A stretch of DNA of 64,000 nt from Microbacterium sp. TPD7012 (GTDB lineage: Bacteria > Actinomycetota > Actinomycetes > Actinomycetales > Microbacteriaceae), in the NCBI RefSeq assembly GCF_003075395.1, contig NZ_QDFV01000001.1, positions 717,543-781,542 of the forward strand, in the 5' to 3' direction. The position numbers were made by a program, and so were the translations under genes. Shown piece by piece: positions 8,777 through 33,643 of this stretch (its first letter is position 1; each line of letters opens with the position of its first letter). Under the pieces are notes generated by a model. It ran no database searches and was not told the origin of the DNA. It saw only the letters and a list, made by a program, of their open reading frames with translations.

Positions 8777-9592
8777 TCAGCCGACCGTGCCCGCGGGAGA
8801 GGCACCGCCATCGCCGTCGACGTGCAGGAGAGACGCCTGCGACTGCTCCTGCTGCAGCTGGAACTCGAAGCGCGACCGATCGCCGCGGTGGTAGGCGATG
8901 AAGTACTCCATGGGGGCGCCGTCGGCGCTGCGGCTCACGCTGCGCAGCCGCAGCAGAGCCGAGCCCGCACTGACGCCGAGGAGCTGCGCCTGCTCGTGGG
9001 TCGCGACCGTGGCCTCCGCCGAGCGGACGCCGTGCGTCGCGACGACGCCGTTGTCGGCGAGGAGGCGGTACAGCGACGCCTCGGTCAGATCGGCGTCGAG
9101 GGTGACGGCGCCGACGGCATCCGGCATCCAGGTCGTGGAGAGCGACCACGGCTCGCCGTCCACATGACGCAGTCGCTCGAGGGCGACGACCGGTGACCCG
9201 ACGGGGATCTCCAGGGCGAGCGCGACCTCCTCATCGGCAGTCGTCCGCTCGTGCCGCAGCACGTCGCTGTGCACGTGGCCGCCGCGACGCTCCACGTCGT
9301 CGTACAGGCCGACGAGCGTGTGCACGAGGCTCTCGCTCGTGCGCGGTCGGGACACGAACGTTCCCTTGCCCTTGACCCGCTCGACCAGCCCTTCGTGCTC
9401 CAGCTGGGCGAGAGCCTGTCGCACGACGGTGCGCGAGATGCCGTAGCGCTCGCACAGGCGGTGCTCCCCGGGCAGCGGATCGCCGGGCTGCAGGCCGTCT
9501 CGCGCGATGCCGTCGATGATCAGCTGGCGCAGCTGGTCGTACATCGGAGCGGCGGAGTGCCGGTCGATCGTGTCCGCAACGGTGCCGGTCAT
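8777..9592 (-). CDS. GntR-family regulator, HutC/UTRA type, of the ribose operon
   Basis: Regulator of 271 aa. Residues about 15-80 are a GntR winged helix ('GEHRLCERYGISRTVVRQAL' and wing 'VKGKGTFVSRP'); residues 95-245 form a UTRA effector domain, with 'LERLRHVDGEPWSLSTTWMP' as the usual sugar-binding strand. The ATG at 9592 lies 1 base after the rbsD stop, so this gene is the third of an rbsK-rbsD-gntR transcript and likely autoregulates it. UTRA domains bind sugars or sugar phosphates; ribose or a ribose phosphate would fit. A palindrome upstream of the operon (11061-11078) is its best candidate operator. Confidence 0.9.
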   Translation of the reverse strand: MTGTVADTIDRHSAAPMYDQLRQLIIDGIARDGLQPGDPLPGEHRLCERYGISRTVVRQALAQLEHEGLVERVKGKGTFVSRPRTSESLVHTLVGLYDDVERRGGHVHSDVLRHERTTADEEVALALEIPVGSPVVALERLRHVDGEPWSLSTTWMPDAVGAVTLDADLTEASLYRLLADNGVVATHGVRSAEATVATHEQAQLLGVSAGSALLRLRSVSRSADGAPMEYFIAYHRGDRSRFEFQLQQEQSQASLLHVDGDGGASPAGTVG

Positions 9593-9593
9593 G

Positions 9594-9998
9594 TCAGTAC
9601 GCGACCCCCGCGTGCAGGATGACGTTCGCATAGGGCGTGAACTCGCCGGAGCGCACGAACGCCCGCGCGCCCTGCGTGAGCTTCTTGAACTCGACGTGCG
9701 GCACGAGCTCGATCTCGAATCCCATTCCGGCGAAGCGCTCGCGCAGAGCGTCGAGCACCTGCGGGCTCTTCTCGGCGACCTCGGCGGACACCGTCGCGCC
9801 CTCCACCACGAGCTCGGCCAGCACGGTGTCGAGCACATCGAGGAAGGCCGGTGCTCCGGGTCGATACGCCAGGTCGATGCGCTCCGAGCCGAGCGGGATC
9901 GGCAGGCCGGCATCGGTCACGACGAGCAGGTCGGTGTGCCCGGTCTCGCTGATCACCCGTGAGAGCGCGGGGTTGATCGTGGTCGCTGACTTGCGCAT
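9594..9998 (-). CDS. rbsD: D-ribose pyranase RbsD
   Basis: Interconverts the pyranose and furanose forms of D-ribose so that ribokinase receives its substrate. The 134-aa length, the catalytic His in 'SETGHTDLLVVTDAGLPIP' (H21) and the C-terminal 'TPYANVILHAGVAY' are diagnostic for RbsD, a decameric cytosolic enzyme. It lies between rbsK (12-base gap) and the GntR gene (1-base gap) on the same strand. Confidence 0.95.
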   Translation of the reverse strand: MRKSATTINPALSRVISETGHTDLLVVTDAGLPIPLGSERIDLAYRPGAPAFLDVLDTVLAELVVEGATVSAEVAEKSPQVLDALRERFAGMGFEIELVPHVEFKKLTQGARAFVRSGEFTPYANVILHAGVAY

Positions 9999-10009: not shown

Positions 10010-10972
10010 TCAGTTCGTCGCGGTCGCGGATTCCCGCGCCTCGAGGAAGGCATCGACATCGGCACGGTGCGGCAGGCTCGGCGACGCGCCCTGCGTGGTC
10101 ACGGTCAGCGCTCCGGCCGCCGTGGCCAGGCGCACGGCTTCGCTCAGCGTGCTGCCGTTCGCGAGGGCGGCGCCGAGATAGCCGGCGTAGGCGTCGCCGG
10201 CCGCGGTCGTGTCGACCGCCTCGACCGGGAACGGCGGGACGATCGTCGCGCCCTCGGCCGTCACGACGCAGGACCCCTGCCCCGCGAGCGTGATGACCGC
10301 GGCGCCCACGCCCTGCTGCAGGAACCAGAGGCCGGCGCGCTCCGCCGACGCGGCATCCGTCACCTCGATCCCGCTGATCAGCGAGGCCTCGGTCTCGTTG
10401 GGGGTGACGATGTCGACGCTCCGCCAGATCTCGGCCGGGAGCTCGGCAGCGGGCGCCGGATCGAGGATCACGGTCATCCCGTGCTCGCGCCCCCGCGCCG
10501 TGATGTGGGCGGTGAGCGCGGACGGCGTCTCGAGCTGGGTCAGGAGGACGGATGTCGTCGACGCCAGCGCACCGAGCGCGGCGTCGATCTGCTCGGTGCT
10601 CAGGGCGGCGTTGGCGAGCGGGACCATCACGATGTCGTTCTGCGCGGAGGCGTCGACGCGGATGTGCGCGATGCCGGTCGGGCCCGGGACCGTGCGCAGG
10701 TGCGTGAGGTCGACTCCCGCGTCGCCGAGTCCGTCGACGACGAGGTCGTGGAACAGGTCGTCGCCGACGCAGCCCACGAAGCTGGTGCGGGCGCCGGAGC
10801 GCCCGGCGGCGACCGCCTGGTTGGCGCCCTTGCCGCCGAGCATGAGCGTGAACTCGTCGCCGAGGATCGTCTCGCCCCGGGCGGGGAGGCGCCGTGAGAA
10901 GGTGGTCACGTCGGCGGTCACGCTGCCGACGATGACGACGCCGGAGCGATCGCCGGGAAGTGCGGGGGACAT
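10010..10972 (-). CDS. rbsK: Ribokinase RbsK
   Basis: PfkB-family kinase (320 aa) that phosphorylates D-ribose at O5. Both PfkB signatures are visible: the N-terminal 'MLGGKGANQAVAAGRSG' and the C-terminal 'VDTTAAGDAYAGYLGAAL', whose Asp is the catalytic base and whose Gly-rich part forms the anion hole. The start is taken as ATG 10972, preceded by AGGAG at 5 bases; an in-frame GTG at 10999 is possible but has no ribosome site. It opens the rbsK-rbsD-gntR operon. No ribose importer is adjacent; the RbsABC-type set at 20031-23655 is one candidate. Confidence 0.93.
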   Translation of the reverse strand: MSPALPGDRSGVVIVGSVTADVTTFSRRLPARGETILGDEFTLMLGGKGANQAVAAGRSGARTSFVGCVGDDLFHDLVVDGLGDAGVDLTHLRTVPGPTGIAHIRVDASAQNDIVMVPLANAALSTEQIDAALGALASTTSVLLTQLETPSALTAHITARGREHGMTVILDPAPAAELPAEIWRSVDIVTPNETEASLISGIEVTDAASAERAGLWFLQQGVGAAVITLAGQGSCVVTAEGATIVPPFPVEAVDTTAAGDAYAGYLGAALANGSTLSEAVRLATAAGALTVTTQGASPSLPHRADVDAFLEARESATATN

Positions 10973-11019
10973 CTCGCTCCTGATCCTCTTCGACAGCACG
11001 CTCGGCCGCGTCGGCGTCT

Positions 11020-11060: not shown

Positions 11061-11078
11061 AACCTGTAACGACAGGTT
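11061..11078. promoter_or_regulatory. Operator palindrome AACCTGT-AACG-ACAGGTT
   Basis: A perfect 7-base inverted repeat with a 4-base centre, AACCTGTAACGACAGGTT, between rbsK and the transaldolase-like gene. Near-identical sites lie at 29436-29453 and 29459-29476, so it is a true regulator site and not chance. The UTRA-type regulator of the rbs operon is the leading candidate; the nearby FadR-type protein is the alternative. Confidence 0.8.
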
Positions 11079-11096: not shown

Positions 11097-11780
11097 ATGA
11101 CTGCGATCGCCCCCCGCCTCTACGTCGACAGCGCCGACGTCGACCGCATCTCCCGGCTGCTCGCCGCCGGCGTCGTGCACGGCGTGACGACCAATCCGAC
11201 CATCCTCGAGCGCGGCGACAGGACGGCCGCGGACATCCCGGAGCTGTATGCGCGGTGGGCGGGCGAGGGTGCGCAGGAGATCTTCTTCCAGACGTGGGGA
11301 GGTGACACGGCGTCCTTCCTGCGCAACGCCGAGGGCATCCGCGCTCTGGGCGACCGCGTGGTCGTGAAGGTGCCGGCCACGGCCGACGGCTTCGCCGCGG
11401 CATCCGCTCTCGTCCGCGACGGCGCGACCGTGCTCGTGACGGCCGTGTACTCCGTGGCGCAGGCACTCGTGGCCGCGAGCATCGGCGTGCGGTACATCGC
11501 CCCGTACCTCGGACGGATGAGGGATGCCGCCGCCGAGACCGGCTTCTCCGGGCCCGGCGCAGAAGACGTCATCGCCCGCATGCAGGAGGTCTGCGTCGGC
11601 AGCGGCACCGATGTTCTGGCGGCGTCGCTGCGCTCGCCGGAGGACATCGTCGGTCTGCGGATGCTGGGCGTGCCCTACTTCACCGCCGCCCCGGACGTGA
11701 TCGAGCGGATGCTCCTCCACGACGTGAGCGACAGCTCGGCTGTGGAGTTCGACTCGGCCATGGAGCGACTCGGGGCCTGA
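11097..11780 (+). CDS. Transaldolase / fructose-6-phosphate-aldolase family protein
   Basis: Class I aldolase of 227 aa, the short form of the family (fructose-6-phosphate aldolase is about 220 aa, full transaldolase about 320 or more). The N-terminal 'LYVDSADVDRI' and 'GVTTNPTILERG' (residues 29-40) hold the conserved Asp and Thr-Asn, and the Schiff-base Lys is in 'DRVVVKVPATADG' (K91). The exact donor and acceptor are not clear. It is divergent from rbsK and carries the shared operator just in front of it, so it is likely induced by the same sugar as the rbs operon and may feed or drain pentose phosphates. Confidence 0.85.
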   Translation: MTAIAPRLYVDSADVDRISRLLAAGVVHGVTTNPTILERGDRTAADIPELYARWAGEGAQEIFFQTWGGDTASFLRNAEGIRALGDRVVVKVPATADGFAAASALVRDGATVLVTAVYSVAQALVAASIGVRYIAPYLGRMRDAAAETGFSGPGAEDVIARMQEVCVGSGTDVLAASLRSPEDIVGLRMLGVPYFTAAPDVIERMLLHDVSDSSAVEFDSAMERLGA

Positions 11781-18973: not shown

Positions 18974-19843
18974 ATGAACATCGGCTGCCACGGGCTCGTC
19001 TGGACCGGGAACTTCGATGCCGACGGCATCCGTCTCGCTGTGGAGAAGACGAAAGCGGCGGGGTTCGATCTCATCGAGTTCCCCCTCATGGATCCGTTCT
19101 CGTTCGACGTGGCGGCCGCGAAGGACGCGCTCGAGGAGCACGACCTCGCGGTGAGCGCATCGCTCGGGCTGTCCGAGGCGACGGACGTCACGAGCTCCGA
19201 CCCCGCGATCGTCGCGGCGGGCGAGGCGCTGCTGATCCGCGCGGTCGACGTGCTCGCCGAGCTGGGCGGCGAGCACTTCTGCGGGGTGATCTACAGCGCC
19301 ATGAAGAAGTACATGGAGCCCGTGACGCCCGAAGGACTCGCGAGCAGTCGCGCCGCCATCGCGCGGGTCGCCGACCACGCCGCCGAGCGCGGGGTGTCGG
19401 TGTCGCTCGAGGTGGTCAACCGCTACGAGACCAACGTGCTGAACACGGCCCGTCAGGCGCTCGGCTACCTGGCGGAGGTCGACCGGCCCAACGTCGGGAT
19501 CCACCTCGACACGTACCACATGAACATCGAGGAATCGGATATGTTCGCGCCGGTCCTCGACGCCGCTCCCGCCCTGCGCTACGTGCACATCGGCGAGAGC
19601 CATCGGGGCTACCTCGGCACCGGGACGGTCGACTTCGACACCTTCTTCAAGGCGCTCGGCCGCATCGGGTACGACGGTCCGATTGTCTTCGAGTCGTTCT
19701 CGTCGGCCGTGGTCGCTCCTGATCTCAGTCGGATGCTGGGCATCTGGCGGAACCTCTGGACAGACAACGACGAACTGGGCGCCCACGCCAACGCGTACAT
19801 CCGCGACAAGCTCGTGGCGGTCGAATCGATCCGCCTGCACTGA
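18974..19843 (+). CDS. Sugar isomerase/epimerase, ketose 3-epimerase-like (TIM barrel)
   Basis: AP-endonuclease-2-fold enzyme of 289 aa close to the D-tagatose / D-allulose 3-epimerases. The metal-binding and catalytic residues are in 'SLEVVNRYETN' (first Glu), 'GIHLDTYHMNIEE' (Asp, His), 'YVHIGESHRGYLG' (His, Glu, Arg) and 'PIVFESFSS' (second Glu). These four motifs are those of the ketose 3-epimerases, which use Mn2+ or Co2+; L-ribulose 3-epimerase activity is another option. It sits under two LacI operators and is followed by an ABC importer. Confidence 0.85.
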   Translation: MNIGCHGLVWTGNFDADGIRLAVEKTKAAGFDLIEFPLMDPFSFDVAAAKDALEEHDLAVSASLGLSEATDVTSSDPAIVAAGEALLIRAVDVLAELGGEHFCGVIYSAMKKYMEPVTPEGLASSRAAIARVADHAAERGVSVSLEVVNRYETNVLNTARQALGYLAEVDRPNVGIHLDTYHMNIEESDMFAPVLDAAPALRYVHIGESHRGYLGTGTVDFDTFFKALGRIGYDGPIVFESFSSAVVAPDLSRMLGIWRNLWTDNDELGAHANAYIRDKLVAVESIRLH

Positions 19844-19975: not shown

Positions 19976-20030
19976 CTGCGGCCCGCATCGCCGGACTCGC
20001 AACATGACCTTCAAGGAAGCAGGTGAGCAC

Positions 20031-21533
20031 ATGAGTGAGCCCATTCTCAGAGTGGAGGGGATCAGCAAGGGATTCCCCGGTGTGCAGGCGCTGAAAGACG
20101 TGCACCTGGAGGTGCGTGCCGGCGAGGTGCTGGTGCTGGTGGGAGAGAACGGCGCCGGCAAGTCGACGCTGATGAAGATCCTCTCCGGGATCTACACCAA
20201 GGACGAGGGCACCATCACGTTCGAGGGTCAGGAGGTCGAGCTCACCAGCCCGCTGCAGGCCCAGGAGCTCGGCATCACGATCATCCATCAGGAGCTCAAC
20301 CTGATGCCGGATCTGACCGTCGCGCAGAACATCTTCGTAGGCCGTGAGCCGACTTCCGGCCCCTTCCTCTCCGAGAGGAAGCTCAACACGCAGACCGCTG
20401 AGCTGCTCAAGCGGATCGAGATCCGCCTCGACCCGCGCCAGCTCGTCGGCGAGCTGACGGTCGCCGAGCAGCAGATGGTCGAGATCGCCAAGGCCCTGTC
20501 GTTCAACGCCAAGGTCCTGATCATGGACGAGCCGACATCGGCCCTCACCGACACCGAGGTCGAGACGCTGTTCGTGCTGATCGAGCAGCTCAAGGCCAGC
20601 GGCACCGGCATCGTCTACATCTCGCACCGCATGGACGAGCTCCGCCGACTCGCCGATCGGGTGACCGTGCTGCGCGACGGCACATACATCGGATCACTCG
20701 ACCGGGCCGACGTCACGATCCCGACGATCATCGAGATGATGGTTGGCCGCGTGATCGACGAGGGCACCCGGCCCCAGGCGCGCGAGCACATCAACGATCC
20801 GATCGTCCTCGACGTGCAGGGCCTCTCGACGAGGAACCTGCTCAAGGACGTGTCGTTCCAACTGCACAAGGGCGAGATCCTCGGCTTCGCCGGGCTCATG
20901 GGCGCCGGCCGCACCGAGACCGCGCGCGCCGTCATCGGCGCCGACCACCGCGACGGCGGCACGATCTCGATCAGCGGACGTCCGGTGCGCATCGGCCAGC
21001 CGGCGGATGCCGTGAAGCACGGCCTCGGCTACCTCTCCGAGGACCGGAAGCTGCTCGGGCTCATGCTCGAGCAGGACGTCACGTTCAACACGGTGCTCGC
21101 CTCGCTCGGCTCGTACGCCAACGGCATCGGCTGGATGGGCGACAGCAAGGCGAAGAACCGCACCAAGGAGTACGTGCAGCAGCTGCGGGTGAAGACGCCC
21201 TCGGTCAACCAGGTCGTCAAGCTCCTCTCCGGAGGGAACCAGCAGAAGGTCGTCATCGCCCGGTGGCTGATGCGCGACTGCGACATCCTCATCTTCGACG
21301 AGCCGACCCGAGGGATCGACGTCGGCGCGAAGGAGGAGATCTACCGCCTCATGCAGCAGCTCGCTGACCAAGGCAAGTCCATCATCGTCATCTCATCGGA
21401 GCTCCCGGAGATCCTTCGCGTCGCGAACCGCATCGCGGTCTTCGCGAACGGTCGCATCACCGGGACGCTCCGCAACGAGGAAGCCAGCCAGGAGAAGATC
21501 ATGCAACTCGCAGCCCACGGGGAGGAAGACTGA
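20031..21533 (+). CDS. Sugar ABC transporter ATP-binding protein, RbsA/MglA type
   Basis: Tandem-domain ATPase (500 aa) of a CUT2 sugar importer. The first domain has Walker A 'GENGAGKST', the signature-like 'LTVAEQQMVEIAKAL' and Walker B 'VLIMDEPTSAL'; the second lacks a standard Walker A as is usual in the family but has 'LLSGGNQQKVVIARWL' and 'ILIFDEPTRGID'. The start ATG at 20031 has an AAGGAAG-type site; an in-frame ATG at 20004 would add 9 residues. The next gene overlaps the stop by one base. The gene order ATPase-permease-binding protein matches ribose/xylose-type importers. The upstream motif suggests membership of the fucose regulon. Confidence 0.93.
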   Translation: MSEPILRVEGISKGFPGVQALKDVHLEVRAGEVLVLVGENGAGKSTLMKILSGIYTKDEGTITFEGQEVELTSPLQAQELGITIIHQELNLMPDLTVAQNIFVGREPTSGPFLSERKLNTQTAELLKRIEIRLDPRQLVGELTVAEQQMVEIAKALSFNAKVLIMDEPTSALTDTEVETLFVLIEQLKASGTGIVYISHRMDELRRLADRVTVLRDGTYIGSLDRADVTIPTIIEMMVGRVIDEGTRPQAREHINDPIVLDVQGLSTRNLLKDVSFQLHKGEILGFAGLMGAGRTETARAVIGADHRDGGTISISGRPVRIGQPADAVKHGLGYLSEDRKLLGLMLEQDVTFNTVLASLGSYANGIGWMGDSKAKNRTKEYVQQLRVKTPSVNQVVKLLSGGNQQKVVIARWLMRDCDILIFDEPTRGIDVGAKEEIYRLMQQLADQGKSIIVISSELPEILRVANRIAVFANGRITGTLRNEEASQEKIMQLAAHGEED

Positions 21534-22567
21534 TGAGCACCCCACAGCAGCCCGGATCGTCGACGACGACGGTCATCCAGACGGCGGTGAACGAGAACAC
21601 CGACAAGCGCGACGTCGGAGCGTTCCTGAAGCGCCAGCTCCAGCAGTCGCTGGCATTCGGCACCCTCATCGTCCTGGTGATCTTCTTCACGATCGCCAGC
21701 CCGAACTTCTTCACCTTCAGCAACATCGCCACGGTCCTCCTCTCGACCGCGGTCATCGGCATCCTCGCCCTCGGCACGACGTTCGTCATCATCACCGGCG
21801 GCATCGACCTGTCGATCGGCACCGGCATGGCGCTCTGCGCCGTGATGACCGGTGTGTTCGTGACCAACATGGGCCTCCCGGTCTGGGTCGGCGTGATCGG
21901 CGGCGTGCTGACCGGTGTGCTGATGGGCCTGGTGAACGGCGTGAACATCACGTTCCTCCGGCTTCCTCCGTTCATCGCCACGCTCGCGATGATGATGATC
22001 GCGGGCGGTCTCGCCCTCGTCATCTCCAACGTCTCGCCGATCTACTTCTCCACCTCGGCGCCGGACTTCAAGAAGATCGCGCTCGGCGTGATCATCCCCG
22101 GCATCCCGAACGCCGTGCTCATCACGGCCGTCGTCGCGATCATCGCGTGGCTGGTCCTGTCGAAGACGCTCCTCGGCCGCTACACCTTCGCGATCGGCTC
22201 CAACGAGGAGGCCACGCGTCTCTCGGGTGTCAACACCCGTCGCTGGACGATCCTCATCTACATGTTCGCCGGCGCCTTCACCGGCATCGCGGGCATCGTG
22301 ATCGCCGCTCGCCTCGACTCGGCCCAGCCGCAGATCGGCATGGGGTACGAGCTGCAGGCGATCGCCGCGGTCATCATCGGCGGCACCTCGCTGCTGGGCG
22401 GCCGCGGATCCATCCTCGGCACCGTGATCGGCGCGCTCATCATGAGCGTGCTCGTCAACGGCCTGCGCATCCTGTCGATCCAGCCCGAATGGCAGAACAT
22501 CGTCGTCGGCGTCGTCGTGCTGCTGGCCGTGTTCCTCGACTCGCTGCGCAACCGCCAGCGGACCTGA
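21533..22567 (+). CDS. Sugar ABC transporter permease, RbsC type
   Basis: Membrane subunit of the importer (344 aa). After a 40-residue cytoplasmic head come about ten hydrophobic segments, with the CUT2 signatures 'ITGGIDLSIGTGMAL' and 'GSNEEATRLSGVNTRR' and the loop 'IIGGTSLLGGRGSILG'. The ATG overlaps the ATPase stop (TGATG), a sign of translational coupling. Confidence 0.93.
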   Translation: MSTPQQPGSSTTTVIQTAVNENTDKRDVGAFLKRQLQQSLAFGTLIVLVIFFTIASPNFFTFSNIATVLLSTAVIGILALGTTFVIITGGIDLSIGTGMALCAVMTGVFVTNMGLPVWVGVIGGVLTGVLMGLVNGVNITFLRLPPFIATLAMMMIAGGLALVISNVSPIYFSTSAPDFKKIALGVIIPGIPNAVLITAVVAIIAWLVLSKTLLGRYTFAIGSNEEATRLSGVNTRRWTILIYMFAGAFTGIAGIVIAARLDSAQPQIGMGYELQAIAAVIIGGTSLLGGRGSILGTVIGALIMSVLVNGLRILSIQPEWQNIVVGVVVLLAVFLDSLRNRQRT

Positions 22568-22653
22568 AGCAGTTCGACCCGACTCAACTGAATAGCACCA
22601 CGCAGTCCACCGTCGGCCCCCGGCCGGCAATCACAGAGAACAATGGAGTTTCC

Positions 22654-23655
22654 ATGAAATTCGGCAAGAAGACCGCATTCGCGGCACTCGTGGCAGCATC
22701 CGCGCTGGTGTTCGCCGGCTGCGCCGGCGGCGGAGACGTGATCGAAGAAGGCAGCGGCGGAGGCAGTGGCTCAGGCGACGGCGAGATGTACATCGCCCTC
22801 GTCTCGAAGGGCTTCCAGCACCAGTTCTGGCAGGCCGTGAAGAAGGGCGCGGAGCAGAAGGCGGAAGAGCTCGGCGTCAAGATCACGTTCGAAGGCCCCG
22901 CGGCCGAGACCGAGATCGCGGGCCAGCTCGAGATGCTGACCGCCGCGATCGACAAGAACCCGGATGCCATCGCCTACGCGGCGCTGGACCCCGAGGCCTG
23001 TGTCGCCCCGCTCGAGCAGGCGAAGTCGAAGGACATCCCTGTCGTCTACTTCGACGCTCCCTGCAACGGCGACGTCGGGCTCAGCCTGTCGGCGACCGAC
23101 AGCAAGGTCGCGGGCGCGCTCGCCGCAGAGCACATGGCCGAGCTGATCGGTGGTGAGGGCCAGGTCGCGATCGTGGGCCACTCGCAGATCAACTCGACCG
23201 GTGTCGAGCGTCGTGACGGCTTCGTCGAGAAGATCGAGGCCGACTACCCCGACATCGAGATCGTCGACATCCAGTACGGCGACGGCGACCACCTGAAGTC
23301 GGCCGACATCGCGAAGACGCTGATCGCGGCGCACCCCGACCTCAAGGGCATCTACGGCACCAACGAGGGCTCGGCCATCGGCGTCGTGAACGCCGTGAAC
23401 GAGCTCGGCCTGGAGAAGGGCAAGATCACGATCGTCGGCTTCGACTCCGGAGCGGCGCAGATCAACGCCATCAAGGACGGCACCATGGCCGGCGCCATCA
23501 CGCAGGACCCGATCGGCATCGGCGAGCAGGTCGTGCAGGCCGCCTACGACGCGGCCAACGGCAAGGAGGTCGACGAGTTCTACGACACCGGTTCCTACTG
23601 GTACGACAAGACCAACATCGAAGACCCGAAGATCGCCGCAGTCCTCTACGAGTGA
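22654..23655 (+). CDS. Sugar-binding lipoprotein, RbsB type
   Basis: Periplasmic-binding-protein-like lipoprotein (333 aa) that delivers sugar to the adjacent CUT2 importer. The lipobox 'VFAGC' puts the lipid on Cys23, followed by an acidic Gly/Ser linker. The fold is marked by 'ALVSKGFQHQFWQAVKKGA', 'AAIDKNPDAIAYAALDPEA', 'GTNEGSAIGVVNAVNE' and 'TIVGFDSGAAQINAI'. The start ATG 22654 is the only sensible one. Ribose, allulose and fucose are all possible ligands; sequence alone does not tell. A terminator follows. Confidence 0.92.
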   Translation: MKFGKKTAFAALVAASALVFAGCAGGGDVIEEGSGGGSGSGDGEMYIALVSKGFQHQFWQAVKKGAEQKAEELGVKITFEGPAAETEIAGQLEMLTAAIDKNPDAIAYAALDPEACVAPLEQAKSKDIPVVYFDAPCNGDVGLSLSATDSKVAGALAAEHMAELIGGEGQVAIVGHSQINSTGVERRDGFVEKIEADYPDIEIVDIQYGDGDHLKSADIAKTLIAAHPDLKGIYGTNEGSAIGVVNAVNELGLEKGKITIVGFDSGAAQINAIKDGTMAGAITQDPIGIGEQVVQAAYDAANGKEVDEFYDTGSYWYDKTNIEDPKIAAVLYE

Positions 23656-23775: not shown

Positions 23776-24324
23776 ATGACCCCCACCCCCGCGCGACCTG
23801 ACGGCTCCAACACCGTCAACCCCTTCCTCATGACCGACGACGCCGCACGGATCATCGACTTCCTCACGCGCGTCTTCGGCGCGATCGACGTGCCCGAGGC
23901 GCGGACGCTCGACACCGACGGACTGATCCTGCACTCCGAGCTGCGCATCGGAGACTCCCTGATCACGGTGGCGGATCGCAAGCCGGACTGGCCGTTCACG
24001 CCCGGCTTCCTCCAGGTCTACGTCGACGACGTCGAAGCGACGCTGGAACGCGCGGTCGCGCTCGGTGCGCGCATCGTGACCCGCCCGACGGACTTCTTCG
24101 GCGACACGTTCTCGCGCTTCACCGACCCGTCCGGCAATCTGTGGTGGGTGTATCGGCACGAGCCGCAGGAAGCGGCCTGGGATGCCGCGCCGGCTGTGGA
24201 CGCCGGAACGACCGATGCCGACGCCGAGGACTGGTCCAGCTTCACCTCTCCGGAGCTCGAGTACATCCACGAGAGCCTGGTCGAGGCGATGACATCATTG
24301 CAGGATCCGCGGATCGCGAACTGA
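23776..24324 (+). CDS. VOC-superfamily (glyoxalase/bleomycin-resistance-fold) protein, PhnB-like
   Basis: A 182-aa protein with one paired beta-alpha-beta-beta-beta module set: 'VNPFLMTDDAARIIDFLTRVFGAID' at the start and 'PGFLQVYVDDVEATLERAVALGA' and 'FGDTFSRFTDPSGNLWWVYRH' at residues 75-130, as in PhnB/YdeG-type VOC proteins. A poorly conserved acidic tail of about 50 residues follows. Substrate unknown. It is flanked by a terminator upstream and a convergent operon downstream, so it stands alone. Confidence 0.85.
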   Translation: MTPTPARPDGSNTVNPFLMTDDAARIIDFLTRVFGAIDVPEARTLDTDGLILHSELRIGDSLITVADRKPDWPFTPGFLQVYVDDVEATLERAVALGARIVTRPTDFFGDTFSRFTDPSGNLWWVYRHEPQEAAWDAAPAVDAGTTDADAEDWSSFTSPELEYIHESLVEAMTSLQDPRIAN

Positions 24325-24435
24325 GGCGCCTGGTCGGGCGGAGATCTCACATTCGGGAGTTGGATCTGAGCCTCAGACTCCTCCCGTCGCGGAGAACTCC
24401 GCCCGAACAGCTGTCAGATGACGCAGCGCCGCGAC

Positions 24436-25404
24436 TCACGCCGAGAGCGTGAGCAGGCGCGCCGGGTTGGCGATCAGCATCCGGTCCACGGCGTCATCGC
24501 CGATCAGCGCGCGGAGACGCGGGACGTAGCGCTCGCCGAGGTAGCCGAGGCCCGGTACGCCGCCGTAGGCGAAGTAGCGGGTGCGTCGCGCGACGTCTCC
24601 GCCGAGCACCACACGATCGCCCGCTCCACGCTCGACGACGGATGCGGTCAGCGCCAGCAGCTCGGCATCGGACCGCGTGCGCGGCCGCGCGAATCCGTCG
24701 TACCCGAGGTAGGCGCCGCGTTCGGTGAGGGAGACGTGCAGCCCCGGATCCGGATCGCGGTCGGCGTGCGCGAGCACCACACGATCGGATGCCACGCCCT
24801 CGGCCGCGAGCAGATCGAGGACCTCATGGGCTGCGGTGCAGAACTCCAGGTGCACCATCACCGGCGCACCGGTCTCGCGGTGCGCGGCGGCGACGGCGAG
24901 GATGGTCGTGCGTTCGAAGGGGCTGATGCGCCAGTAGTCGATGCCGGCCTTCAGCAGCCCGGCGCGCACCGGCTCGCCGTGGGTGGTCGCGGCGAGTGGG
25001 ACCTCCGGCGTCTCGAACACCGCGGTGTCGGCATCCGGCATCCCGCGGGTGAGGTCGGAGCGGAACAGCGCGGCCAGGCGGTCGACCGTCCAGACCTGCA
25101 TCGGATGGTCCGCTCCGTAGTGCGCCTCGCGATGCCGGCCCGTCGTCGCGACGATGTGCAGGCCGGTCGTCGCACTGATCCGCGCCAGCGCCGCGGGGTC
25201 GCGGGCGAGGCCGAACGGGGTCGCATCGACCATCGACTCGAAGCCGCTCGCCTTCAGCAGCCCCGCTTCCGCGCCCGACGCGCGCTCGTCGTCGAGCTCA
25301 TCACCCGGCAGCAGAGGCGACACCTGGAACAGATGCTCGTGATAGTCCACGCGCCCGAGCGCGGCCGGTTCGACATCGCCGAGCACCGTCCGGACGACCG
25401 GCAT
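24436..25404 (-). CDS. Phosphotriesterase-family hydrolase, possible sugar lactonase
   Basis: Amidohydrolase-superfamily barrel (322 aa) of the COG1735 type. The first metal pair is 'VDYHEHLFQ' (H22, H24); 'PVMVHLEFC' and 'VVLAHADRDPDPG' carry the later His residues and 'VVLGGDVARRTR' the metal Asp. Members of COG1735 include sugar-lactone-phosphate hydrolases, which suits a position behind a sugar kinase and two dehydrogenases. The ATG at 25404 shares a base with the upstream stop (TGATG), so it is the last gene of the five-gene operon. Organophosphate hydrolysis is not implied. Confidence 0.82.
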   Translation of the reverse strand: MPVVRTVLGDVEPAALGRVDYHEHLFQVSPLLPGDELDDERASGAEAGLLKASGFESMVDATPFGLARDPAALARISATTGLHIVATTGRHREAHYGADHPMQVWTVDRLAALFRSDLTRGMPDADTAVFETPEVPLAATTHGEPVRAGLLKAGIDYWRISPFERTTILAVAAAHRETGAPVMVHLEFCTAAHEVLDLLAAEGVASDRVVLAHADRDPDPGLHVSLTERGAYLGYDGFARPRTRSDAELLALTASVVERGAGDRVVLGGDVARRTRYFAYGGVPGLGYLGERYVPRLRALIGDDAVDRMLIANPARLLTLSA

Positions 25405-26363
25405 CAGCGCACCGACTCCGCCGCCTCGGCGAGCCGCTCGACGGTCTCGGGGGTGAGGTCGAGCTCGAACACGTCGGCCACGACCTGCGACCAGCCGTGG
25501 ATGAAGTAGCGCCAGCCGTCGACCACGTGCAGCGACCGGGCGGTCTCCTGCGCGTGGGCCTGGTGCAGGAACTCGAGCGAGCCGCGGTAGTTGAACTCCC
25601 ACGCGTACGCGCCCTCGGGGAACACGACCGCGTCGGTCAGCGGAGAGCCGGGGCGATCCTTGCCGAGTCCCGTGGCGTTCGCGATCACCGAGCCCAGGGG
25701 AGCGGCGGCCACGACCGCGTCGGCCTCGTCGGGGGTGGCCGTGACGATGTAGTCGATCAGCCCGTCGCGGGTGCCGTGCTGGCGGTGCACCTCGCGGAGA
25801 TGGTCGAGCTTGTCCTGCGAGCGGGCCGTCACCGTGACGCGAGCGGGAGCATCGGCGCGCTCCGCGAGCGCCCAGCTGAGCGCCGTGCCCGAGCCGCCGG
25901 CTCCGAGGATCACGACCTCCGCTCCGGTGCGGGCGAAGTGGTCGGCGGGGAGGAAGTCGTTCAGCGCCAGGTCGACCGTGATCGGATCCTTCGCGCGGCC
26001 CGACAGCAGCGCGCCGCGCTTGGAGATGCTCGAGATCTCGGCGCACGACACCGCGAAAGGATCGAGCTCGTCGAACAGATCGGATGCCGCGGCGTACACG
26101 TTCATCTTGTGCGTGGTGACGAGGGCGCCGCGGTGGTGCGGGTCGTCGCGGATCTGCTCGACCATCGCCCGGTACTGCGCCGGATCGGCATCCATCGGCA
26201 GGTCGTGGCCGATCAGCGTGCGGGTCGGGAGGCCCAGGATGTCGGCCCAGAGCGGGAACACCTTCATGATCGACGACGACGCCGTCGTCACGCCGACGAA
26301 GCCCATGTAGTTCGACGGCACGGTCTCGATCGTCTCCGGATCGGTGGTGAGGGACGAGGTCAT
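25404..26363 (-). CDS. Shikimate-dehydrogenase-like oxidoreductase in a sugar operon
   Basis: AroE-fold protein of 319 aa. The N-terminal substrate domain has 'VGVTTASSSIMKVFPLWADILG' and 'ALVTTHKMNVYAA', where K86 matches the catalytic Lys; the partner Asp motif of true AroE (GxNTD) is not evident. The NAD(P) loop is 'VILGAGGSGTALSWAL'. It is about 45 residues longer than AroE and the context is sugar catabolic, so it is likely not a shikimate enzyme. It begins 9 bases after the hydroxyacid dehydrogenase stop. No reaction is assigned. Confidence 0.8.
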   Translation of the reverse strand: MTSSLTTDPETIETVPSNYMGFVGVTTASSSIMKVFPLWADILGLPTRTLIGHDLPMDADPAQYRAMVEQIRDDPHHRGALVTTHKMNVYAAASDLFDELDPFAVSCAEISSISKRGALLSGRAKDPITVDLALNDFLPADHFARTGAEVVILGAGGSGTALSWALAERADAPARVTVTARSQDKLDHLREVHRQHGTRDGLIDYIVTATPDEADAVVAAAPLGSVIANATGLGKDRPGSPLTDAVVFPEGAYAWEFNYRGSLEFLHQAHAQETARSLHVVDGWRYFIHGWSQVVADVFELDLTPETVERLAEAAESVR

Positions 26364-26372
26364 CGGAGGCTC

Positions 26373-27326
26373 CTAGCGGGCGGTCACGGGGTGGGCGGGC
26401 TCTGCGCCCCTGAGCACGGCGAGGACGTCGTCGAGCGAGATCGAGCCCATGTTGTCCACGGCCTGGGTGGTCTGCGCCCCGAGATGAGGAGTCACGATCA
26501 CCCGGTCCGCGAGGGCCGGATCGAGCAGAGGGCTGGCCTGGGCGGCGGTGTCGCCGTCGAGCGTGTCGGCGGCGTAGGCGGACAGGATGCCGTCGCGCAG
26601 CGCCTCGGCGACGGCGGTCTCGTCGACGAGGTCGCCGCGCGCCGTGTTCACCAGCACGGTGCCTCGTCGAATATGGGCGAGCCGTCCGGCGTCGACGAGC
26701 AGCTGACCGCCCGGGGCGTGCAGCGTGATCACGTCGGCGACGCGGAACAGCTCGTCGAGGTCGATCGGCTCGGCGCCGTTCGCCCGGATCAGGTCGGCGG
26801 ACAGGAAGGGGTCGGCGGCGACGACGCGCGGCCCGAAGCCGCTCAGGCGCCTCGCCACGCCCTGGCCGATGCGGCCGAAGCCGACGATCCCCACGACGGC
26901 CGCCCCCAGCTCGCGTCCGCGTCGCACGCTCCAGTCGCCCTCGCGCACCCGGCGGTCGCCGTCCGGCACGGACCGCAGCGCGGCCAGCATGAGACCTGTG
27001 GCGTGGTCGGCGACGGCATCCGCATTGGCGCCGGGGGTGTTGGTGACGGGGATGCCTCGGCGACGGGCCGCCTCCAGATCGACGGCCTCCGTGCCGACGC
27101 CGTAGCGGGCGATGACCTTGAGGCGCGGCCCCGCGTCGAAGTGCTCGTCGGTGACGGCACCCGTGCCGGCGATCCAGGCATCCGCGCCATGCAGCAGCGG
27201 ACGCAGCTCGTCGAGGTCGTGGTGGGCGGGACCGCGCAGGATGCGGTGACCGGCCTGTGCCGCCCGACCGACGAGGTCGAGGTCGCCGTCCGAGAACGAG
27301 CGGCTGGTGACGAGGATCACGCCCAT
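26373..27326 (-). CDS. D-2-hydroxyacid dehydrogenase (phosphoglycerate-dehydrogenase-like)
   Basis: NAD-dependent dehydrogenase of 317 aa. 'ARYGVGTEAVDLEAARRRG' and 'NTPGANADAVADHATGLML' are the conserved catalytic-domain motifs, 'GIVGFGRIGQGVARRL' is the Rossmann loop, and the catalytic Arg, Glu and His are in 'VLVNTARGDLVDE' , the following Asp/Glu stretch and 'IVTPHLGAQT'. There is no C-terminal ACT domain, so it is not a standard SerA. The ATG at 27326 shares a base with the stop of the kinase gene. The very long open frame upstream in this register is an artefact of GC content. Confidence 0.87.
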   Translation of the reverse strand: MGVILVTSRSFSDGDLDLVGRAAQAGHRILRGPAHHDLDELRPLLHGADAWIAGTGAVTDEHFDAGPRLKVIARYGVGTEAVDLEAARRRGIPVTNTPGANADAVADHATGLMLAALRSVPDGDRRVREGDWSVRRGRELGAAVVGIVGFGRIGQGVARRLSGFGPRVVAADPFLSADLIRANGAEPIDLDELFRVADVITLHAPGGQLLVDAGRLAHIRRGTVLVNTARGDLVDETAVAEALRDGILSAYAADTLDGDTAAQASPLLDPALADRVIVTPHLGAQTTQAVDNMGSISLDDVLAVLRGAEPAHPVTAR

Positions 27327-28816
27327 CAGCTCGGCCGTCCTGCGAACCAGGGCGCGAGAGCCGAGTAGGCCTCGGCGAAGCGGGCGTGGCGCTCGACATA
27401 GACCGCGTGACGCCCGGCATCCGGGGTGAACTCGGCGGTCACCTCGCTCAGCGCGCGCGCCGCGGCGAAGTCGGCGAGGCCGAGACCGACCGCGCCCGTG
27501 ACCGCGGCGCCGAGGCTGTTCGCCTCTTCGACGATCGTGCGTCGGCGCACCGGCACACCCCAGACATCGGCGAGGACGGACAGGTACACGTCGCTCTGCG
27601 CTCCGCCGCCGACCGCATCGATGCGGTCGATCACGGCGCCCGAATCCCGGAACGCCTGGATGCACGTGAGCAGGTTGAAGGCGGTGCCCTCGAGCACCGC
27701 GCGCATGAGGTGAGCGCGCTGATGATGGCGTGCGAGGCCGACGAAGGCGCCACGGGCATCGGGGTCCCAGAGCGGGGAACGCTCGCCGAGGAGGTACGGG
27801 AGGAAGTAGAGGTCGTCGGTGTCGACGTCGCCGGAGGCCTCGGCGATGAGCCGACCGGTCTGCGGGTGCGCGGCATCGGGGGAGAGGGCTTCGGCGATCC
27901 ACTGCACGGATGCTCCGCCGGCCTGCATCGTCGCGGTCGGGACGAACGACCCCGGCACGACGTTGTCGAACGTGAAGGTGCGCATCGCCGGATCGTGCAG
28001 CGGCTGATCCGCGGCGAACGAGATCCACGACGACGTGCCGAGGCAGACGTACGCGCCGTCCTCGGGTGCGACCACGCCGGACCCGACGGCGGCCATCGGG
28101 CCGTCCCCGCCGCCCATGACCACGGGGACGCCGGCAGGCAGCCCGAGCGCCTGGGCCGCGGCATCCGTCAGTCCGCCGGCGATCGCGGTCGAGTCGAGGA
28201 TCTCGGGGAACAGGGCGGGGTCGAGGCGCGCAGCCTGCAGCACCTCGTCGGACCAGGTACCGGTGCGCTGGTCGTACGCGTTCGTTCCCGAGGCATCGGA
28301 GCGGTCGGTCGCCAGGCGTCCGGTGAGGCGCAGCACGATGAAGTCCTTGGCGACGCAGACGCGGCGCACGCGCGACCAGATGTCTGGCTCGTGGTCGCGC
28401 ACCCACATGACCTTCTCGAGGGAGTAGGTCGGATTGAGGCGATGACCGAGGATCGCGTAGGCGTGCTCGGCGCCGAGGGCGGCTTCGAGCTCGCGCTGCT
28501 GCGCCCCCGCACGGGTGTCGGCCCAGATGATCGCCGGACGCGCCGGCTCGCCGTCGGCGTCGAGAAGCACGGCGCCCATCATCTGCCCGCTCACGACGAG
28601 GCCGGCGATGGCGGCAGGGGCCGTCTCGGTGCGGGCGAGCAGATCGCGGGTCGCGGCGACGACCGCGTTCCACCAGTCGGCCGGTTCCTGCTCGGCGATG
28701 CCACCCGCGGCGAAGTGCGCCGGGTAGGGCACGGTGACCGCGGCGACCAGTCGGCCGTCGTCGTGATGCAGGGACGCCTTGTTCCCCGTGGTCCCCAGGT
28801 CGTGCGCGATGAGCAT
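27326..28816 (-). CDS. FGGY-family carbohydrate kinase (xylulokinase-like)
   Basis: Sugar kinase of 496 aa with the two-domain actin-like fold. The N-terminal phosphate loop is 'LIAHDLGTTGNKASLH'; the second ATP site motif 'GAYVCLGTSSWISFAA' and 'DRIDAVGGGAQSDVYLSVLADV' with 'EANSLGAAVTGAVGLG' at the C-terminus follow. The substrate-loop 'SGQMMGAVLLDADGEPARPAIIWAD' resembles xylulokinase. The catalytic Asp is in 'VMGGGDGPMAAVG'. Which sugar it takes is unknown. It is the second gene of the operon, nine bases after the cupin gene. Confidence 0.9.
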   Translation of the reverse strand: MLIAHDLGTTGNKASLHHDDGRLVAAVTVPYPAHFAAGGIAEQEPADWWNAVVAATRDLLARTETAPAAIAGLVVSGQMMGAVLLDADGEPARPAIIWADTRAGAQQRELEAALGAEHAYAILGHRLNPTYSLEKVMWVRDHEPDIWSRVRRVCVAKDFIVLRLTGRLATDRSDASGTNAYDQRTGTWSDEVLQAARLDPALFPEILDSTAIAGGLTDAAAQALGLPAGVPVVMGGGDGPMAAVGSGVVAPEDGAYVCLGTSSWISFAADQPLHDPAMRTFTFDNVVPGSFVPTATMQAGGASVQWIAEALSPDAAHPQTGRLIAEASGDVDTDDLYFLPYLLGERSPLWDPDARGAFVGLARHHQRAHLMRAVLEGTAFNLLTCIQAFRDSGAVIDRIDAVGGGAQSDVYLSVLADVWGVPVRRRTIVEEANSLGAAVTGAVGLGLADFAAARALSEVTAEFTPDAGRHAVYVERHARFAEAYSALAPWFAGRPS

Positions 28817-28825
28817 GGCCGCGGC

Positions 28826-29401
28826 CTATCCCGCGTAGGGACGCAGGTCGACGCCGTCGGCCGCACGGTAGGCGCGCGAGCCCATGCCGTGCTCGAGCAC
28901 CCAGCCGTAGTCGTGGCCGGCGCCGCCCGGATACACGGCGAGGAACGCGTAGGGCTCGTCGCCGGTGTTGACCGAGCGATGCGCCCACCCCGGCGGGATG
29001 TAGCCGATGGTACCGGGGAGCATGTCGAGCCATTCGGTGCGCTCGCCGTCGAACATGAGGAGTCCGCCGCGTCCCTTCAGCGCGAGGTAGATCTCGCCCT
29101 GGTGGTTCGGATGCTGGTGCCCCTTGGTCATCCACAGCTCGCCGGACGTGTCGCCGGGCATGATCGTGGTGATCGACTGGGGGAGCTCGCGGTCGATCTC
29201 GGGGACAGGGGAGCTGACGACGGTGTAGACGACCGGGTCGTCGCCCGCGGATGCCGCGGCCCAGGCGTCGGCGTCGAGGAAGAGGCCCTCGAGATCGGAC
29301 ATCCGCCTGGTGAGGGTCGGTCCTTCGGGGGAGAGCGTCAGGTTCTCGGCATCGAAGGCGATCGCCATCGGGGAGATCGGCGGGGTGTGGAACTCGGGCA
29401 T
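28826..29401 (-). CDS. Cupin-type glucose-6-phosphate-isomerase-like protein
   Basis: Single-domain cupin of 191 aa related to the archaeal-type phosphoglucose isomerases. The metal motif is 'TKGHQHPNHQGEIYLALKG' (two His, Glu) with a further His in 'YIPPGWAHRSVNTG', then 'FLAVYPGGAGHDYGWV'. As the first gene of the five-gene operon it may be an isomerase of the unknown sugar or its phosphate. The start ATG 29401 has AAGGAG in front and lies below a promoter with two operators. Confidence 0.83.
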   Translation of the reverse strand: MPEFHTPPISPMAIAFDAENLTLSPEGPTLTRRMSDLEGLFLDADAWAAASAGDDPVVYTVVSSPVPEIDRELPQSITTIMPGDTSGELWMTKGHQHPNHQGEIYLALKGRGGLLMFDGERTEWLDMLPGTIGYIPPGWAHRSVNTGDEPYAFLAVYPGGAGHDYGWVLEHGMGSRAYRAADGVDLRPYAG

Positions 29402-29435
29402 CGGTGCTCCTTGCGAGGATGCTGCGGCGCTGCGC

Positions 29436-29453
29436 AACCTGTAATGACAAGTT
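29436..29453. promoter_or_regulatory. Operator, proximal copy (AACCTGTAATGACAAGTT)
   Basis: Imperfect palindrome differing in two bases from AACCTGTAACGACAGGTT at 11061-11078. It lies 34 bases before the first gene of the cupin-kinase operon, downstream of the predicted -10. Confidence 0.75.
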
Positions 29454-29454
29454 G

Positions 29455-29484
29455 AGTGTACCTGTGATGACAGGTTCGCGTCCA
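29455..29484 (-). promoter_or_regulatory. Predicted promoter of the five-gene operon
   Basis: On the minus strand TGGACG (29484-29479) and TACACT (29460-29455) are 18 bases apart. The -10 lies between the two operator copies and the spacer overlaps the distal copy. Confidence 0.5.
29459..29476. promoter_or_regulatory. Operator, distal copy (TACCTGTGATGACAGGTT)
   Basis: Second copy of the motif, with its centre 23 bases from the proximal one. The 14-base core CCTGTGATGACAGG is palindromic apart from the centre. Confidence 0.78.
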
Positions 29485-29510
29485 GGCGCAGTGCTCATCC
29501 GCGCGGCCCC

Positions 29511-29548
29511 GGTCGCTGAGCGAGCGCAGCGAGACGAAACGCAGCGAG
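29511..29548. repeat. Interspersed repeat, GGTCGCTGAGCGAGC family
   Basis: GGTCGCTGAGCGAGCGCAGC plus GAGACGAAACGCAGCGAG lies between divergently placed operons. Related copies are at 31921-31980 and 34544-34611. Confidence 0.7.
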
Positions 29549-29577
29549 GGGCTCGGTGAGGTGGCGCGGCGGCCTAG

Positions 29578-30114
29578 TCAGGCGTCGGCGCGGCGGGCGC
29601 GGTACGCGGCGACGGCGTTGCGGTTGGCGCAGGTCGCCGAGCAGTAGCGCTTCGAGCGGTTGCGCGAGAGGTCGAGGGCGAGGGCCTCGCAGGTGTCGTC
29701 GTCGCAGACTGTGATGCGTGACCCCTCGTCGGTGCGGATGACGTCGATCAGGGCCATCGCCGTCTCGATGAGCACGCGCTCGGCGAGCGGTCGTTCGTCA
29801 TCGACGGCGTGCAGGTGCCAGTCGGTGCCGTCGTGCCGCACGAGGTGCGGCGTGAGCGTGCTCTCGTCGAGGGCGGCGTTCACCCGCTCGACCATGTCGT
29901 CGCGCGGGGCCAGCAGCATCGATCGCAGACGCGGTCGAAGCTGCTGCAGGGACGCGAGTTCCGCGTCGTCGCGATTGAGCCGACCGGTGTAGGGGAACTC
30001 CACCAGGAATGCCGCGTAGTCGTGGAGGTCGGCGAGCGTCTCCGGGTCCTCCGCGGAGTTCACGAGCCAGACCGCCGAGCGGAGAGCCTCGGCCGTGTCA
30101 TTCGTGAAGATCAT
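29578..30114 (-). CDS. CGNR zinc-finger protein, putative stress-responsive regulator
   Basis: A 178-aa protein with the ABATE N-terminal domain ('LVNSAEDPETLADLHDYAAFLVE') and a C-terminal CGNR zinc finger: 'VCDDDTCEALALDLSRN' followed by 'YCSATCANRNAVAAYRAR', giving four Cys ligands. Such proteins are presumed DNA-binding regulators, function otherwise unknown. It is divergent from the EamA transporter with 39 bases between the two starts, so it may control that gene. Confidence 0.88.
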   Translation of the reverse strand: MIFTNDTAEALRSAVWLVNSAEDPETLADLHDYAAFLVEFPYTGRLNRDDAELASLQQLRPRLRSMLLAPRDDMVERVNAALDESTLTPHLVRHDGTDWHLHAVDDERPLAERVLIETAMALIDVIRTDEGSRITVCDDDTCEALALDLSRNRSKRYCSATCANRNAVAAYRARRADA

Positions 30115-33519: not shown

Positions 33520-33530
33520 TGCTGTCCGCC

Positions 33531-33611
33531 CACACGACTTCGGAGATCGAGGGCGACATGCCGGCACCGGCATCCGTCCGCCGGCATGTCGCGTCGGATC
33601 TCCGAAGTTGT
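33531..33611. repeat. Long intergenic hairpin between prpD and prpB
   Basis: Two nested pairings: CACACGACTTCGGAGATC (33531-33548) with GATCTCCGAAGTTGTG (about 33596-33611), and GCGACATGCCGGC (33553-33565) with GCCGGCATGTCGC (33580-33592). The loop is about 14 bases and has no T-tract, so it may be an mRNA processing or attenuation element or a repeat insertion. Confidence 0.8.
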
Positions 33612-33643
33612 GCGCCGACCGGCCGAAACGGAAGGACCTGCTG

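Follow-up and report, generated by a model that had tools for sequence, protein, structure and literature searches.

A conserved, apparently co-regulated five-gene operon of Microbacterium predicted to serve phosphorylative, oxidative sugar breakdown

In the Entner-Doudoroff pathway (Zwf, Pgl, Edd, Eda), a sugar phosphate is oxidized to a lactone, the lactone is opened and the carbon chain is cut by aldol cleavage of the 2-keto-3-deoxy-6-phosphogluconate (KDPG) type. The same logic may underlie a five-gene operon of Microbacterium sp. TPD7012 that we analysed in a stretch of 64,000 nucleotides, hereafter the window (contig NZ_QDFV01000001.1, positions 717,543 to 781,542; genome G000 of our set, 4.08 Mb in 17 contigs). 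This operon differs from the Entner-Doudoroff genes in its dehydrogenase and lactonase families, in having a 2-hydroxyacid dehydrogenase and no recurring dehydratase in its core, and in bringing its own kinase, isomerase and operator. Its phosphotriesterase (PTE)-like lactonase has metal ligands and ligand-side loops in common with the phospho-furanose lactonase branch of COG1735 (solved structure 3pnz and Mycoplasma enzymes, the latter presumably its kin), and is ~30% identical to Listeria homologues that lie beside phosphotransferase system (PTS) genes with no AroE or 2-hydroxyacid dehydrogenase gene within 7 kb. The L-ascorbate-6-phosphate lactonase UlaG is the second and last NCBIfam match, at scores far below its cut-off, of metallo-beta-lactamase (MBL)-fold proteins found at two related loci. 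Its AroE-like dehydrogenase shares the fold and the position of an Asp (and, as matched by eye, possibly of a Lys) with quinate/shikimate dehydrogenases and with 5-ketofructose reductase, which acts on a free sugar, but is only 16-24% identical to these in structure alignment and has invariant residues of its own. Lastly, the galactitol/D-altritol catabolism of Agrobacterium C58, reportedly described by Wichelecki in 2015, combines an ATP-binding cassette (ABC) importer with short-chain dehydrogenase/reductase (SDR) alditol dehydrogenases, likewise annotated beside the rhizobial cores considered below, and is not known to have an AroE/lactonase/KDPG core. The first-pass annotation of the window knew of no described pathway with this gene set, and we likewise found none in the titles, abstract openings and selected passages of the open-access literature searched. 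The data below point to a real, conserved and apparently co-regulated catabolic unit, probably for phosphorylative, oxidative sugar breakdown, that is undescribed within that literature.

The open reading frames place the five genes on the minus strand between 24436 and 29401, in the order listed, followed here by the operator copies found by motif scan:

28826..29401, minus strand: cupin-type phosphoglucose-isomerase-like protein, operon gene 1 (PF06560, 69.9 bits, cut-off 20.7)
27326..28816, minus strand: FGGY sugar kinase, XylB-like (FGGY profiles, 197 and 125 bits; TIGR01312, 396 bits)
26373..27326, minus strand: D-2-hydroxyacid dehydrogenase (PF02826, 148 bits)
25404..26363, minus strand: AroE-like dehydrogenase of a distinct subfamily (weak AroE matches; AroE fold in the model)
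24436..25404, minus strand: PTE/COG1735-type lactonase (PF02126, 137 bits; nearest solved structure 3pnz)
29437..29452, no strand: operator copy ACCTGTAATGACAAGT
29460..29475, no strand: operator copy ACCTGTGATGACAGGT
11062..11077, no strand: operator copy ACCTGTAACGACAGGT, between divergent ribokinase-like and transaldolase-like genes

Profile scores, together with the modelled fold in the case of the weakly matching AroE-like protein, bear out all five families named in the first-pass annotation, as well as the tight coupling that it had read from TGATG junctions at 25404 and 27326: the AroE-like/lactonase and kinase/2-hydroxyacid dehydrogenase junctions are 1-nt overlaps, and the remaining two gaps are of 9 nt each. 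Of the operator-flanked promoter that had also been proposed, the operator part stands, with two copies of the palindrome ACCTGTNATNACAGGT or a near copy (16 bp each) before the cupin gene, the nearer of them 35 nt from its ATG at 29401, and supports a single operon behind a common operator. The promoter itself is putative, since a scan of 24300-29600 found no sigma-70-type promoter and no T-tailed terminator. No Rfam family reached its gathering score in the window, nor did protein P0002 have a phage match. An imperfect inverted repeat of 30 nt (77%) at 24330-24410, where the operon and a VOC-type gene converge, is possibly a two-way terminator that lacks a T-run.

Conservation of the gene set was assessed at the best 80 of 178 AroE-like relatives from a scan of named genomes, with genes called by a codon-frame scorer rather than a standard gene finder (so that starts are approximate) and grouped by homology clusters. 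Within 8 kb of the AroE-like gene, the lactonase was found at 75 loci, the 2-hydroxyacid dehydrogenase at 74, the kinase at 68, the cupin at 64 and ABC importer genes at 57 to 66, in counts that include several loci ending at contig ends and one, L092, with no AroE call. Because most named loci carry the same partners within this distance, the grouping is not due to chance. The cupin was called on the opposite strand in over a dozen Microbacterium loci, an orientation that needs checking. Carriers of the five-gene set are found among Microbacteriaceae, Arthrobacter, Actinomadura, Plantactinospora, Saccharopolyspora, Streptomyces and Nocardioides; with an MBL-fold hydrolase in the lactonase slot, it is also present on alphaproteobacterial plasmids (15 matches, of which six loci were opened). 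Part of the set is present in Longilinea (Chloroflexota, L110), where it is accompanied by genes for a fucose-isomerase-like protein, a D-psicose 3-epimerase scoring above its cut-off, a further FGGY kinase and a distant PTE homologue. The AroE-like subfamily itself is patchy: counting this genome, it was detected in 14 of 297 genomes of the order (E below 1e-70) and in 11 of 396 of the phylum sample (at least 85 bits, three of them partial), all other matches being far weaker. Collecting homologous operons in search of conserved extra genes, as the first-pass annotation had proposed, brought out two recurring additions, a KDPG-type aldolase and the ABC importer encoded at 20004-23655.

The operator links these genes beyond the operon. 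Within the window, three occurrences with at most two mismatches compare with 0.08 expected, and in the whole genome ACCTGTNATNACARGT with at most one mismatch gave five sites and its reversed pattern none: two before the cupin, one before an orphan aldolase gene, one at window position 11062, and one 14 nt upstream of a DkgA-like aldo-keto reductase (AKR; 7116-7952 of locus L161 on contig C12; 354 bits, cut-off 425), overlapping the called end of the gene before it. Across the 80 loci, 78 operator sites with at most one mismatch were found, as against none for each of eight shuffled palindromes. At readable loci, the operator with at most two mismatches lay upstream of the cupin in 49/64, the ABC ATPase in 30/65 and the kinase in 15/69, less often upstream of the ketose 3-epimerase (5/49), transaldolase-like (2/14), ribokinase (2/16) and EamA (1/22) genes, and upstream of none of the 21 to 40 scored for each of the fucose-type, propionate-type (prpD, 0/21) and LacI genes; four control palindromes together scored 3, 1 and 1, and otherwise 0. 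Fourteen relatives (13 Microbacterium and one Leucobacter) have one to six operator sites per genome and zero or one control match, with L050 left out of the operator and aldolase searches; the four Microbacterium relatives in which an extra site was opened (L162-L165) have it 14 nt before the same DkgA-like reductase. The exact 16-letter sequence ACCTGTAACGACAGGT recurs in 10/14 relatives. A GntR regulator of the HutC/PhnF type encoded at 8777-9631 probably controls this regulon, because its orthologue directly precedes the cupin in 16 loci.

The aldolase that recurs near the core would provide the carbon-carbon cleavage step missing from the route sketched in the first-pass annotation. Of the 80 loci, 30 have a KDPG-type aldolase gene no more than 8 kb from the AroE-like one; in 27 of them it stands directly between the genes for the 2-hydroxyacid dehydrogenase and the AroE-like protein. 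Such a gene is also annotated in five of the six plasmid loci opened. The window operon has none, and the genomic orthologue is the orphan gene on contig C1 (709602-710174), ~32 kb away from the operon's near end, whose product is 80.7% identical over 197 residues to the aldolase of locus L070 and exceeds the eda cut-off (TIGR01182, 184.4 versus 156.05 bits). Orthologues with 77-83% identity occur in 13/13 Microbacterium relatives searched, and the Leucobacter genome, left out of the aldolase-operator scoring as G695, has only a 50% match. Among 14 Microbacterium genomes (the 13 relatives and this one), the operator precedes the aldolase gene by at most 150 bp in seven, and in the other seven a copy with three to four mismatches occupies that region, where four control palindromes need five to seven; the distance from operator or degenerate copy to the matched aldolase stretch is 38-82 bp. 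Linkage and shared operator, both seen by sequence comparison, give good support to a regulon centred on the operon, probably catabolic, with the aldolase among its operator-bearing genes. An Entner-Doudoroff-type class I aldolase (TIGR01182) is present behind the operator, and Edd was not found in the same unit: the window operon has none, and the two ILVD/EDD genes of the genome (C3:403903 and C1:104290) lie elsewhere, with no operator site at either. An altered aldolase residue was considered as a sign of hydroxypyruvate use and dropped, since such substitutions also occur in relatives of the usual kind. DeoC-type aldolase genes accompany the core at L105 (score above the deoC cut-off) and L109 (judged by eye), both from Nocardioides, and by annotation at L118 in Sinorhizobium.

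We give about even weight to the proposal that operon and aldolase together break down a monosaccharide by a phosphorylative, oxidative route resembling the Entner-Doudoroff pathway; the substrate, reaction order and cleavage products given here are predictions from the enzyme families. The ABC importer would bring the sugar in, with the ketose 3-epimerase perhaps funnelling related ketoses; the FGGY kinase would phosphorylate the ketose at its terminal hydroxyl, and the cupin isomerase would convert the ketose phosphate to an aldose phosphate. With its ring form oxidized by the AroE-like enzyme, the aldose phosphate would then give an aldonolactone phosphate, whose opening to the aldonate phosphate would fall to the PTE-type lactonase (in alphaproteobacteria, to a UlaG-like enzyme). 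After oxidation of C2 by the phosphoglycerate dehydrogenase (PGDH)-like enzyme, the resulting 2-keto acid phosphate would be split by the KDPG-type aldolase into an aldehyde phosphate (glyceraldehyde-3-phosphate in the case of a six-carbon sugar) and a keto acid of three carbons. Overall, this would be an Entner-Doudoroff-like route put together from unrelated enzymes, in which a second dehydrogenase takes the place of the dehydratase. The order is the economical one for a set that has one kinase, isomerase, lactonase and aldolase each and no more than two redox enzymes. The sequence suggested in the first-pass annotation (phosphorylation, oxidation to the lactone, ring opening, 2-hydroxyacid step) is still the most workable, though putative, and its phosphorylative character and lactone opening are supported. 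A stricter version is tentative and on balance doubtful, namely a 'dehydrogenase-type' Entner-Doudoroff pathway in which an AroE-fold enzyme forms the lactone, a PTE- or UlaG-like one hydrolyses it, the 2-keto acid arises through a SerA/PdxB-type enzyme with no dehydration, and cleavage by a KDPG-family aldolase yields hydroxypyruvate rather than pyruvate; such a pathway would serve rare ketoses or alditols feeding them. If the proposed route is correct, it adds a means of sugar breakdown to Actinomycetota, Alphaproteobacteria and at least one Chloroflexota locus, and a separate AroE subfamily, annotated as 'shikimate dehydrogenase' in several public plasmid records, gains a catabolic role. 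Operator and gene list make the substrate directly accessible to induction and growth tests.

The cupin passes the score of the cupin phosphoglucose isomerase family, the solved chains nearest to it are named glucose-6-phosphate isomerase, and H95, H97, E103 and H141, which we take to be its metal ligands, are kept in at least 95% of 62 aligned sequences (residue-conservation counts here and below leave out proteins at least 80 residues longer or shorter than the window copy). The kinase exceeds the xylulokinase equivalog cut-off of TIGR01312 (396 versus 380.25 bits), and its nearest solved structure is a xylulose kinase, 2itm. The 2-hydroxyacid dehydrogenase has PGDH as its top NCBIfam match (210.8 bits, under the cut-off of 454). 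The substrate of PGDH is a phosphorylated 2-hydroxy acid.

The AroE-like protein scores 28.8 bits against TIGR00507 (cut-off 200.2) and at best 36.6 against any AroE model (cut-off 252), reaching no curated score, and is unlikely to be the shikimate enzyme because the genome has two stronger AroE homologues (139 and 134.5 bits, themselves under the cut-off of 200.2). Its AlphaFold2 model (pLDDT 91.5) has the predicted fold of a quinate/shikimate dehydrogenase (best match 2nlo, Z 28.1, rmsd 3.0 over 274 residues) and also resembles 5-ketofructose reductase (7cok/7col; Z 26.0, 3.7 A over 273 residues). The first-pass annotation held that the protein retains the Lys and lacks the usual Asp motif. 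The latter proved wrong: A124-K125-D126 aligns with the N-T-D motif of one of the genome's AroE homologues, and the catalytic-type D126 is invariant in 32/32 aligned AroE-like sequences. K86 is invariant in the same 32 and, lying just outside the block aligned with that homologue, is by eye a candidate for the catalytic Lys. Further invariants are H85, K235, D236, N258-Y-R-G261 and DGW, among which H85, K235, D236 and R260 are candidate phosphate-binding features; L103 was left out of the alignments for a stop codon within range, and L006 out of that for invariant residues. According to PMC7954740, such a 5-ketofructose reductase is related to shikimate dehydrogenases, and one putative shikimate dehydrogenase was inactive on 5-ketofructose. 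The reductase shows that members of the AroE superfamily are able to act on free sugars. Two paralogues of the AroE-like gene lie on contig C4: one (L033, at 97687) after an ABC transporter, an SDR and two ADH-like genes, the other (L034, at 114914) near an MBL lactonase, a 2-hydroxyacid dehydrogenase, a kinase passing the glycerol kinase cut-off and a split transketolase. A cluster resembling that of L034 directly adjoins the five-gene operon at L063.

For the lactonase, H22, H24, K152, H185, H213 and D270, which we assume to be the PTE metal-binding residues, are kept in at least 95% of 76 aligned sequences. The protein shares with 3pnz (Lmo2620) the ligand-side loops H-DR-DP and GD-AR-T-Y-YG-PGL-Y-VPR, from which hydrolysis of phosphorylated furanolactones may be inferred; 4if2 lacks those loops. 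At 6/6 plasmid loci opened, the PTE slot is occupied by an MBL-fold hydrolase. One of these six, that of L115, was scanned, and it and the MBL protein of paralogue locus L034 match the PRK00685 metal-dependent hydrolase at 48 and 69 bits (cut-off 144), followed by UlaG at 36 and 42 bits (cut-off 306). The AroE tree splits into a PTE-associated and an MBL-associated clade, and midpoint rooting puts Longilinea on the side of the latter, which argues for one deep switch of lactonase rather than many. That two unrelated folds fill the same slot supports a lactone-opening role for it. In two of four neighbourhoods of other PTE homologues that were opened (Deinococcus and Listeria), a KDPG-type aldolase gene stands beside that of the PTE protein. 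In the Listeria record L147, ascorbate-type PTS, PTE, creatininase-family, KDGP aldolase and sugar-isomerase genes form one run (4898-10178), an apparent PTE-plus-aldolase pathway that has no AroE.

Several observations weigh against the proposed oxidative route. The AroE-like enzyme was assigned its step by elimination, and we saw no AroE-fold precedent for aldonolactone formation; the 2-hydroxyacid dehydrogenase, which scores 165.2 bits against glyoxylate reductase, is possibly a keto-acid reductase instead. The lactonase is far under the cut-off of the phospho-furanose lactonase equivalog NF045706 (97.5 versus 630 bits), the other two PTE neighbourhoods opened showed no aldolase, and the substrates of the PTE- and MBL-associated AroE clades could differ. 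Many Microbacterium operons lack an aldolase gene, none was recognized at paralogue locus L034 with its split transketolase and glycerol-kinase-type kinase, and the ABC operon of the window has no operator at up to two mismatches, only a three-mismatch site at 19877. KDPG-type aldolases, moreover, normally cleave 3-deoxy acids.

This last point leads to an alternative that we regard as unlikely, though worth serious consideration: a dehydration that we did not recognize (by the cupin, through lactone chemistry or by an outside enzyme) would yield a 2-keto-3-deoxy acid phosphate from which the aldolase releases pyruvate, while the 2-hydroxyacid or the AroE-like dehydrogenase would carry out a side redox reaction. 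The aldolase score above the eda cut-off fits such chemistry, as do E50 and K139 (L086 numbering), kept in at least 95% of 30 relatives, the PTE-aldolase pairs that stand with neither AroE nor 2-hydroxyacid dehydrogenase alongside, and plasmid locus L117, where a dihydroxyacid/phosphogluconate dehydratase is annotated beside the core on the opposite strand. No dehydratase cluster recurs in the core at the 80 loci, where not all neighbouring genes were identified, a result that tells against both this alternative and the oxidative route; the position of both ILVD/EDD-family genes away from the operator sites also speaks against the alternative, which would leave one dehydrogenase without a role.

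A pentose version of the pathway seems improbable to a similar extent. Here a plain pentulose kinase would lead through pentose-5-phosphates and pentono-1,4-lactone-5-phosphates to aldol cleavage into an acid of three carbons and an aldehyde phosphate of two, the products being handled by HAD phosphatases. PMC10971088 reports that two Mycoplasma lactonases hydrolyse pentono-1,4-lactone-5-phosphates. The kinase score above the XylB equivalog cut-off would agree with such a pathway, as would the HAD genes lying close to the core in four loci (L089, L115, L117 and L119). The cupin and the aldolase, however, resemble enzymes of C6 phosphates, and pentulose-5-phosphates enter the pentose phosphate pathway directly, so that the detour would need a reason.

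Quite unlikely, in our view, is an epimerizing detour in which the two dehydrogenases invert a carbon to reach an ordinary intermediate such as 6-phosphogluconate, with the aldolase on another branch; 2-hydroxyacid dehydrogenase relatives reduce 2-keto-6-phosphogluconate in other pathways and 50 of the 80 loci have no aldolase nearby, but an operator or its degenerate copy precedes the aldolase in 14/14 Microbacterium genomes. That the operon belongs to the neighbouring L-fucose-type oxidative set (12522-17644) is already disfavoured and highly improbable: many Microbacteriaceae loci and two of Arthrobacter have the operon, the fucose-type set and the ABC importer side by side, but the operator was upstream of FucD in 0/27, the fucose-cluster AKR in 0/40, FAH in 0/21 and FucU in 0/22, and the core occurs with no fucose genes in the stretches fetched from Actinomadura, Plantactinospora, Saccharopolyspora, Streptomyces, Nocardioides and alphaproteobacterial plasmids.

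Besides the operon and its operators, the window encodes the following proteins with a possible bearing on sugar use:

8777..9631, minus strand: GntR (HutC/PhnF-type) regulator (profile matches, all below cut-offs)
9594..9998, minus strand: RbsD-type sugar pyranase (PRK11797, 148 bits, over the cut-off of 93)
10010..10999, minus strand: ribokinase-like PfkB kinase (TIGR02152, 288.6 bits, just under the cut-off of 299.65)
11097..11780, plus strand: fructose-6-phosphate aldolase/transaldolase-like protein (TIGR00875, 125.1 bits, below the cut-off of 245.95)
18974..19843, plus strand: ketose 3-epimerase (5zfs, a solved D-allulose 3-epimerase, 526.7 bits over all 289 residues)
20004..21533, plus strand: sugar ABC transporter ATPase (homology cluster; the operator-like site at 19877 precedes it)
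21587..22567, plus strand: sugar ABC transporter permease (homology cluster, labelled by eye)
22654..23655, plus strand: ABC transporter sugar-binding protein (model pLDDT 93.6; nearest folds 4rxt, 5dkv, 3g1w and 4wut)

The ketose 3-epimerase, which scores 167 bits against the NCBIfam D-psicose 3-epimerase (below the cut-off of 300), appears weakly tied to the regulon through the operator found in 5/49 relatives. D-allulose 3-epimerases are an enzyme class of commercial interest, and a relative next to the regulon and transporter may hint at the natural role of such enzymes. Reading a ligand off solved binding proteins (4rxt, 5dkv, 4wut and 4kqc near the window protein, 4ry9 near the rhizobial one) gave no nameable substrate; the ligands of such proteins may include D-arabinose, D-tagatose, D-fucose and a talitol. 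At the Plantactinospora locus L087, a binding-protein gene is part of the operon. The set at 12522-17644 resembles oxidative L-fucose breakdown by eye (lactonase-like, SDR, FAH-type hydrolase, dehydratase-like and AKR genes), and its scored members have no operator. On the other side of the operon, 31268-35819 carries a GntR gene with prpD-, prpB- and citrate-synthase-like genes (labels by eye), probably a methylcitrate (propionate) cluster; at 21 further loci, too, relatives of prpB, prpD and GntR are found close to the operon.

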